A stretch of DNA of 11,507 nucleotides, taken from Acidobacteriota bacterium (lineage in GTDB: Bacteria > Acidobacteriota > Holophagae > Thermotomaculales > Thermotomaculaceae). The DNA is taken from contig JAMOUY010000105.1 in NCBI GenBank assembly GCA_027067895.1, forward strand, positions 1 through 11,507. The letters run 5' to 3'. The position numbers and the translations under genes were made by a program. Below, piece after piece: positions 9,812 through 11,507 of this stretch. The first letter of the stretch is position 1. Each line of letters begins with the position of its first letter. Under the pieces are notes generated by a model. The model was not told the DNA's origin, made no database searches, and saw nothing but the letters and a program-made list of their open reading frames with translations.

Positions 9812-10108
9812 TTAAAACAAACCGGGAAAACCCAAACCGCCAAATCCCTTCATTGAAGATTCAATTTCTTCGTCAACCTTTTTATATCCTTCGGACAATG
9901 CGGCAATAATCAAATCTTCAACCATCTGTTTGTCTTCAAGAAGGGAATCGTCCTCAATCTTTAAAGAAACAACTTCTTTGTGTCCGTTTAAAACAACTTT
10001 AACAGCCCCGCCGCCGCTTGAAGCCTCAACTCTTAACTCTTCAAGTTTCTTCTGCAACATTTGTTGCATCTTTTTTGCCTGTTTCATCAAAAAATTAATA
10101 TCAGCCAT
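9812..10108 (-). CDS. ybaB: YbaB/EbfC-family nucleoid-associated protein
   Basis: Small dimeric DNA-binding protein, regularly encoded next to dnaX. The 98 residues fit the family. An N-terminal coiled-coil helix (NFLMKQAKKMQQMLQKKLEE, 5-24) is followed by the typical central strands (VEASSGGGAVKVVLNGHKEV, 27-46, and SLKIEDDSLL) and a C-terminal helix (VEDLIIAALSEGYKKVDEEI) ending in a glycine- and phenylalanine-rich tail (GFGGLGFPGLF). The ATG is 12 bases below the dnaX stop with GGAGG four bases upstream, so both share a transcript. The usual third partner, recR, does not follow: a terminator closes the unit about 20 bases after the stop. Confidence 0.95.
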   Translation of the reverse strand: MADINFLMKQAKKMQQMLQKKLEELRVEASSGGGAVKVVLNGHKEVVSLKIEDDSLLEDKQMVEDLIIAALSEGYKKVDEEIESSMKGFGGLGFPGLF

Positions 10109-10120
10109 AATTCCTCCGTT

Positions 10121-11507
10121 TTATTGAATTTTCTTTATCTCTCCTTCAAATTCGTCAACAATAAATTTTACCAAAGGATGCTTTTCAACACCGGAAAATT
10201 CTTCTTTTTCCTTAGAAACAACTTGTTTGGTTTCGAGCAAAAACGAATATCTTTTTTTAAAACGAATATAAACATTGCCTTCAAGAGATTTTAAAATATT
10301 TTCAATGCTTCTTATTATAATATCCGGTATTGCATGAAGTTTAATTTTAATCAAATCCTGTCCTTCAAAAATTATCTGAGCCTTTTTTAAAATAGGCGCA
10401 AGTTTGTCTTCGCTTTCAAACCTTTTTTTAATAAAATCCGCAATCTTTTCTTCTTCTGTTTTTTCTTCCGAAATTAAGTTTTGAGAAGAATTTTCCCTTT
10501 TGTCTTCTTCTGCGTGCGGTGTGTGGCTTTCGGATTTCTCTCTATTCTCAATTGTTAGTTTTTTTTTTGAAAGAAGTTCGGAAATCGGCATAACCTTTGA
10601 GGCAAAAACCATCTTGAAAAGCAAAAGTTCAACCGCAATCCTCGGATTAAAGGCGTCCCTTACAAACCTTTCGTTTTGCAGTATTACGTTTAAATACCTG
10701 ATTATATCTTCAACCGAAAATTTCTTATCCCTCAAACTTTCAGGCAGAAAACCCTTATTTCCGCTTACAACCGCATGGAGAAGGCTGTTAAAAAACTCGC
10801 CAAGCCTTAAAACAAACTTTACGAAATCGGTGTTTCTGTCTTCAAGTTTGTCAAGTATGTCAACAATACCTTTTGCATTGTCCTCAACAATAGCCCTGAA
10901 AATATCAAAAAAAACGGTTGAATCGGGCACTCCCAAAACAACCGACACGTCCTCTTCCCTTATCTTCCCGCCTGTGAAGGAGATTATCTGGTCAAGCAGA
11001 CTTTGGGCATCCCTCATGCTTCCCTCAGATGCGTCAACAATCAACTTCAAGGCGTCTTCATCAATGTCAATTCCCTCTTTTTCGCATATTTTTTTCAAAT
11101 GCTCCACAATTTTCAAAGGGGGAATTTTCTTAAACTCAAAAATCTGACACCTTGACCTTATTGTCGCAGGAATTTTGTGAGGCTCGGTTGTTGCAAGTAT
11201 AAAAACGACGTATGATGGTGGTTCCTCAATGGTTTTCAAAAGAGCGTTAAAGGCATGGGTTGAAAGCATGTGCACTTCGTCAATAATGAAAACCCTGAAC
11301 CTGTCCCTTACCGGGGGATACTGCACAATTTCCTTTAAATTTCTTATATCGTCAACCCCTTTGTTTGAGGCTGCGTCAATCTCCATAACGTCAATATCCC
11401 TACCCTCGGCAATCTCTTTGCACTGCTCGCATTCAAGGCATGGCTCAGCGGTGGGGCCGTTTTTGCAGTTTAAGGCTTTTGCGTAAATTCTTGCGGTTGA
11501 GGTTTTT
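10121..11507 (-). CDS. dnaX: DNA polymerase III subunit gamma/tau (5' end beyond window)
   Basis: ATPase subunit of the clamp loader that places the beta sliding clamp on primed DNA. The frame is open to the right edge; 461 residues are visible and about 45 N-terminal ones are missing. The visible part begins with the end of Walker A (KTSTARIYA). It continues with a zinc module of four cysteines (visible residues 14, 23, 26 and 29, spacing C-x8-C-x2-C-x2-C as in E. coli), the core phrase DVMEIDAASNKGVDDIR (39-55), Walker B FIIDEVHML (73-81), sensor 1 ILATTEPHKIPATIRSRCQIFEF (103-125 with the SRC finger) and helical domain III to about residue 310. A charged linker and a compact C-terminal domain complete a tau-like form of roughly 505 residues, shorter than the 643 of E. 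coli. An A10 run at the end of domain III may generate a truncated gamma form. An ATG at 11386 lies inside the conserved core and is not the true start. Confidence 0.97.
   Translation of the reverse strand, partial: KTSTARIYAKALNCKNGPTAEPCLECEQCKEIAEGRDIDVMEIDAASNKGVDDIRNLKEIVQYPPVRDRFRVFIIDEVHMLSTHAFNALLKTIEEPPSYVVFILATTEPHKIPATIRSRCQIFEFKKIPPLKIVEHLKKICEKEGIDIDEDALKLIVDASEGSMRDAQSLLDQIISFTGGKIREEDVSVVLGVPDSTVFFDIFRAIVEDNAKGIVDILDKLEDRNTDFVKFVLRLGEFFNSLLHAVVSGNKGFLPESLRDKKFSVEDIIRYLNVILQNERFVRDAFNPRIAVELLLFKMVFASKVMPISELLSKKKLTIENREKSESHTPHAEEDKRENSSQNLISEEKTEEEKIADFIKKRFESEDKLAPILKKAQIIFEGQDLIKIKLHAIPDIIIRSIENILKSLEGNVYIRFKKRYSFLLETKQVVSKEKEEFSGVEKHPLVKFIVDEFEGEIKKIQ
10559..10568 (-). promoter_or_regulatory. 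A10 slippery run in dnaX (candidate programmed slippage site)
   Basis: On the coding strand TC is followed by ten A residues and then CTAACAATTGAG; in frame this reads Ser-Lys-Lys-Lys-Leu-Thr-Ile-Glu. One extra A gives KKKTNN and then TGA (10550-10548). One A fewer gives KKN and then TAA (10557-10555). Slippage either way would release a DnaX of domains I-III, about 360 residues. Thermus thermophilus dnaX makes its short form by transcriptional slippage at an A9 run. Confidence 0.6.

Follow-up and report, generated by a model that had tools for sequence, protein, structure and literature searches.

The dnaX gene of Thermus thermophilus is said to have been described by Larsen in 2000 as a case of transcriptional slippage. 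Two papers place this slippage at a run of nine A residues (A9), with stops in both other frames (PMC1088944, PMC5009743). E. coli dnaX, as presented in PMC3711429 and PMC5009743, instead uses a −1 ribosomal frameshift at A_AAA_AAG, together with an upstream Shine-Dalgarno (SD)-like element and a hairpin. Another arrangement is the two-ORF dnaX, in which recoding is needed for tau; one survey lists 17 such genes, nine of them with 10 A, and states that the genome set included three Acidobacteria genomes (Antonov 2013, PMC3711429). That survey was the only paper found in the open-licence literature for dnaX, slippage and Acidobacteria together. By term counts, dnaX was paired with none of the genera considered here among the open-licence matches listed.

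We analysed a window (the whole stretch of DNA, 11,507 nucleotides) that carries a dnaX gene with a run of ten A residues (A10) in its coding strand. The features relevant to this run are as follows.

10121..11506, minus strand: dnaX (DNA polymerase III gamma/tau), with frame 0 reading as tau and the 5' end lost at the contig end; TIGR02397 match and full-length copy P0004
10569..11506, minus strand: part common to gamma and tau (ATPase, lid and domain III); Pfam PF13177 (2-128), PF22608 (132-180) and PF12169 (183-313)
10559..10568, minus strand: A10 run, the proposed slippage site; coding-strand letters of dnaX
10555..10557, minus strand: TAA reached with one A lost (9A), predicted gamma end ...SKKN; frame reading
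10548..10550, minus strand: TGA reached with one A gained (11A), predicted gamma end ...SKKKTNN; frame reading
10124..10558, minus strand: tau-specific C-terminal tail of 145 codons; frame-0 reading
9812..10108, minus strand: ybaB/ebfC, the next gene downstream of dnaX and in the same direction; ORF and domain matches

The window protein matched TIGR02397 dnaX_nterm with an E value of 1.2e-106, and the gene is followed by ybaB/ebfC, a usual neighbour of dnaX. The T10 at 10559-10568 of the plus strand is the A10 of the dnaX coding strand (GAA CTT CTT TC-AAAAAAAAAA-CTA ACA ATT GAG), and the tau frame crosses it as S-K-K-K-L-T. The run lies at the end of domain III, about 70% along dnaX (residue 363 of 511): the PF12169 (domain III) match ended at residue 313 of the window fragment, a Ser whose TCA codon supplies the first A. 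An earlier note on this DNA had placed ten A residues at the end of the conserved clamp-loader part, with TGA or TAA close by in both alternative frames and neither an SD-like element nor a clear stem-loop beside the run. All of this was borne out. The run starts in the codon of the last PF12169 residue, the TAA and TGA are at 10557-10555 and 10550-10548, a motif scan found no SD-like stimulator upstream of the window run, and the 70 nt past the run had a minimum free energy (MFE) of −0.5 kcal/mol with z +1.6, that is, no hairpin. The same note had sized tau at about 505 residues and gamma at about 360, figures that need correction. The full-length database copy of the window dnaX, P0004, which came from a protein search in which the best 120 of 5747 matches were considered, has 511 aa, and on this basis tau would have 511 aa and gamma 366 (9A) or 369 (11A) aa.

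We propose that the window dnaX is a programmed recoding site. RNA polymerase would slip on A10, and in some mRNAs the run would then be 9 A, 11 A or another length. Full-length tau (511 aa) would come from mRNAs with 10 A or with a number that differs from 10 by 3n. In all others a stop would follow 0-2 whole codons past the run, and the product would be gamma, of about 366-369 aa, with clamp-loader domains I-III retained and the tau tail missing. The likeness to Thermus is close: the window gene has a homopolymer A run (at least about 9), tau in frame 0, gamma predicted from slipped mRNA, and nearby stops in the two other frames. It differs from Thermus in the length of the run (A10 vs A9), in its position (some 70% of the way into the gene, where domain III ends, vs seven-eighths of the way) and in being known from sequence alone. 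As in E. coli, gamma and tau are predicted to come from one gene with a stop soon past the slip. Unlike in E. coli, the heptamer is A_AAA_AAA with no AAG after it, and neither an SD-like element nor a hairpin was found. The window gene is also unlike the two-ORF type, as it has the opposite (Thermus) polarity, with tau in frame 0.

The run was conserved within the same family (f1, Thermotomaculum-like; NCBI taxonomy places Thermotomaculum in Holophagae, Thermotomaculales). The sample comprised nine same-family genomes, eight of which reach the dnaX site (L006-L009 and L011-L014); L010 ends before it. The run was exactly A10 in 8/8 covering genes, and all three codons of the KKK were AAA in every one (24/24 codons). 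Fourfold sites in these dnaX genes differed by 0.43-0.59 within genera and by 0.66-0.84 between genera. Lys was conserved at 16 columns in 7 or 8 of the 8 genes, and besides the three columns of the run, only 1 of 13 was all AAA (7/7). In genus g1 the order was TCA-AAA-AAA-AAA-CTN (4/4), with the tenth A supplied by the Ser codon TCA 5' of KKK, and in genus g2 it was AGC-AAA-AAA-AAA-AGY (4/4), with the tenth A supplied by the AGY Ser codon 3' of KKK. The register shifts between the genera and the length is the same, indicating that the f1 run is kept at the nucleotide level, not at the codon level. Stops followed 0-1 codons past the run with one A lost and 1-3 codons past it with one A gained (8/8); equally tight stop pairs were found at 0.4-1.8% of positions within each f1 gene.

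Runs of this length were rare in the genomes. The window genome (1,811,738 bases, 83% complete) had five A10/T10 runs, and the four other than that of dnaX lay within no ORF longer than 85 aa. Exact A8, A9 and A10 counts, derived from match counts, were 560, 54 and 5 in this genome, a factor of about 0.1 per added A, and p(A|A) was 0.47 in the window. In the window genome, any given 90 nt of coding sequence would carry an A10 on one strand with a probability of about 1.2e-4; across the four genomes computed, the probability of an A10 start per 90 coding nt ranged from 1.1e-5 to 1.2e-4. Matches to A10/T10 on both strands numbered 5 in G000, 4 in G003, 2 in G005, 1 in G012 and 3 in G014, with overlapping matches counted separately where runs were longer (e.g. 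G002, G004 and G020). All 15 genomes in which the dnaX site was covered had one A10 in dnaX. A10 was also considered as a sharp genome-wide length threshold, and this idea was dropped, as counts already drop steeply between A8 and A9 (r9/r8 0.07-0.12, r10/r9 0.05-0.09, four genomes). Of 4000 synonymous shuffles of the window dnaX, 9% regained an A10 close to the site. Because of this, the single window gene is only suggestive of programming at A10, and it is the relatives that make the case.

A few other A10 runs were located in long ORFs. In each of G003, G005, G006 and G007, one other A10 lay within a frame of about 800-840 aa. Three of the four genomes of the sister genus g2 (L153, L160 and L162; 1501-1510) shared the position of this second A10 (EKKKRW/DKKKRW), in an ORF about 840 aa long with AsmA/TamB/YhdP-like Pfam matches below cut-offs (Pfam on L153 only). 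The dnaX run and the run in the AsmA/TamB-like ORF were the only A10s of G005. We make no claim of a switch for this ORF; its other frames stay open for 20-52 codons. In G003 the ORF with the other A10 (L152, 1501-1510) is about 800 aa long and has acetyltransferase and CoA-binding/ligase domains; its other frames were open for 14 and 47 codons.

A reversed arrangement was found in f3, an Acanthopleuribacteraceae-type family (NCBI lists Sulfidibacter and Acanthopleuribacter under Acanthopleuribacteraceae, also in Holophagae). The sample was L015-L021, all f3 genomes of the class search (n = 7). All seven dnaX genes carried an A10, about 25-42 nt further on than the f1 place, and the run occupied all three codon phases among them. 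Frame 0 ended 1-2 codons past A10 in 7/7, which would give gamma, and the 9A frame stopped within 0-9 codons after the run. A tail of 133-180 codons opened in the frame of one extra A (equal to a −1 shift, or to two A lost). These relatives thus match the two-ORF type, in which frame 0 ends after the run, with tau in the −1 frame (7/7). Between L016 and L018, the tail had a pN/pS of 0.31, with 31/26/77 changes by codon position. Over six pairs, pN/pS was 0.31-0.67 in the tail vs 0.10-0.32 in the upstream 297-300 codons, values which suggest that selection acts on the tail as protein, though less strictly than on the body. The end motif of the tail resembles, by eye, the end of f1 tau (NPIVK..FNGTI vs HPLVK..FEGRI). 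Tau is unreadable in f3 unless the frame shifts at an A10 that occupies a similar part of dnaX, and we regard this as decisive new support for the switch. The gamma/tau switch by slippage that the earlier note had put forward is thus supported by both the A10 conservation in f1 and the reversed arrangement in f3. AAG-interrupted Lys codons in relatives, which that note had named as evidence against it, were not seen in the eight covering f1 genomes; a run of at least nine A kept despite the AAG options, which it had looked for in relatives, was present as three AAA codons within A10 in all eight covering f1 genomes.

We also surveyed the phylum. A family search over 396 Acidobacteriota genomes matched 382, and 100 loci were read (30 best-scoring, 30 from other families and 40 regions, several cut by contig ends). 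In 7/100 loci, the stretch from −90 to +240 nt relative to the domain III end contained a run of at least nine A. Runs of A9-A11 near the same dnaX place were found in six further Acidobacteriota families (f21, f26, f64, f51, f55 and f22). In f21, 11 of 13 genomes had an A9 (L173, L174, L176-L178, L180-L184 and L187), arranged as GG-A9-CTYTRA after the domain III end, at a locus GC of 0.46-0.61. Runs were present in 6/6 f26 genomes (five A10 and one A9; locus GC 0.60-0.68), 2/2 f64 genomes (A10), 2/2 f51 genomes (A10 and A9, the A10 locus being cut 8 nt past the run), 1/2 f55 genomes (A11) and the single f22 genome (A9). With the exception of the cut f51 locus, frame 0 of the run-bearing genes in these six families continued for at least 149 codons past the boundary or reached the end of the retrieved sequence without a stop; tau thus seems to occupy frame 0 there. 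The f21 A9 genes had a stop 1 codon on with an A lost (11/11) and 3-13 codons on with an A gained. Stops in the other run-bearing families were less tight, at 1-23 codons with an A lost and 1-14 with an A gained, which counts against the switch.

Runs of A9-A11 near the boundary also occurred in dnaX loci of 60-70% GC. Those of A10-A11 in loci of 66-70% GC, striking at such a composition, were L149/L190 (G195), L082 (G230), L191 (G354) and L193 (G251). In a set of 123 dnaX genes, which was enriched for run-bearing families and in which the boundary was extrapolated from an early-ending match in a few genes, an A run of at least 9 was present in the 180-nt stretch at the boundary in 38, and an A or T run of at least 9 was present in the conserved dnaX body in none (0/123; 130,749 nt).

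The run was not found throughout the phylum. An A9 run at the boundary was absent from all 21 genes examined in f2, which we take to be Holophagaceae, so the switch appears dispensable in that family. Two small f2 genomes (1.2 Mb), L029 (G031) and G045, contained no A10 at all, and their DnaX open frame had 408 codons. The dnaX of L093 (G097) ends about 9 codons past the domain III end without an A run; a YbaB-like frame (by eye) comes next, no tau tail was seen, and this DnaX is possibly gamma-only. At least five trait changes were needed on a quick tree (107 rows) and six on a careful tree (44 rows), and neither tree told gain and loss apart. A clade of f1 and f3 was present on the quick tree (SH-aLRT 95) and was not recovered by the careful mixture-model tree. 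For this reason, we put forward a single origin of the f1 and f3 runs only as a possibility.

The weight given to f3 depends on its genes being intact. If they were broken, as pseudogenes or through assembly error, or if the tail were a separate protein, f3 would be uninformative for the window. Public records do give the tail as a separate hypothetical protein, of 149 aa in Sulfidibacter corallicola and 117 aa in Acanthopleuribacter pedis (P0001, P0002), and the first ATG, GTG or TTG in the tail frame, which comes 10-63 codons in, is in L021 a GTG at only 10 codons. In the other six genes, however, this start codon lies 23-63 codons in, and the arrangement is identical in 7/7 genomes, including the single-contig G014, whose 3 matches included no second full-length DnaX. 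The purifying selection on the tail and its f1-like end motif also argue against this reading, which we regard as extremely improbable. Chance is hardly a better explanation. An A-rich gene may contain a KKK coded by AAA without any programming, and tau would then be the only product. The synonymous shuffles leave some room for this, as 1.7-43% of the 4000 made per gene regained an A10 close to the site across the 15 A10 dnaX genes, and so do the other all-Lys columns, since 3/22 in g1 and 6/25 in g2 were AAA in all four genomes. Yet the exact length survives both a register change and high synonymous divergence, and A10 is rare elsewhere, the dnaX run being the sole A10/T10 match in the 6.2 Mb of G012. 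Furthermore, f3 tau is unreadable without a shift, and runs of A9-A11 near the same place extend to the GC-rich dnaX loci (60-70% GC). We consider the absence of programming very improbable, and a programmed switch, whichever its mechanism, highly probable.

As for the mechanism, a programmed −1 shift of the ribosome at an A_AAA_AAA inside the run would resemble E. coli and give gamma here (tau in f3). An in-frame A_AAA_AAA is available in every phase of A10 and could yield the same products, the f3 tau frame is −1 in 7/7, and in L011 a strong hairpin lies just past the run (z −2.6). In a review, Chlorobium is named as a candidate for a reversed ribosomal type (Atkins 2016, PMC5009743). However, a scan of the 25 nt upstream for six short motifs found no SD-like element in 14/15 A10 genes, the remaining one being L013 with GGAG at −13, and the 70 nt after the run held no hairpin shared by the 15 genes (z −2.6 to +1.6, strongest in L011). 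The heptamer requires 7 A, but exactly 10 were present in 15/15 genes, in three codon phases. The +1-frame stop is also kept close, at 0-1 codons in 8/8 f1 genes and 1 codon in 11/11 f21 A9 genes, and in f21 this stop sits in the A-lost frame, which −1 ribosomal shifting does not enter. Ribosomal frameshifting is thus, in our judgement, unlikely. Polymerase slippage is favoured because 9-11 A occur in more than one codon phase, the f1 stops are close in both frames, and neither an SD-like element nor a shared hairpin accompanies the run. Programmed gamma/tau production by RNA-polymerase slippage, as in Thermus, is probably what the window gene encodes; from the genomic sequences we infer both the making of the two proteins and a slip in transcription, not translation.

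New here are the clade itself, the distribution across the phylum and the polarity flip inside one class; both polarities had been published before. PMC5009743 states, for E. coli, that the function of gamma alongside tau has been controversial. In the clade analysed here, exactly ten A are kept at high synonymous divergence where A10 is rare, which suggests that both DnaX forms are selected for. More tentatively, and with reservations, dnaX slippage at a fixed-length A run may be an old, recurrent trait of Acidobacteriota whose polarity is evolutionarily free. If polarity is free, slipped transcripts would always give both products, and indels beside the run would swap the frame-0 form with neither form lost. 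One flip would then separate Thermotomaculaceae from Acanthopleuribacteraceae, and a second may have taken place among close relatives (P0016/P0014). The metagenome DnaX P0016 has 370 aa and ends three residues past KKK, and P0014, which is 87% identical, has 499 aa (protein level only); this pair may reflect either a polarity flip of recent date or an indel that assembly introduced into the run.

In Sulfidibacter and Acanthopleuribacter, the tau tail is on record as a stray hypothetical protein. The run apparently works in either polarity within one class, and this would offer a natural comparison of gamma/tau output when each form is made from slipped vs faithful mRNA.
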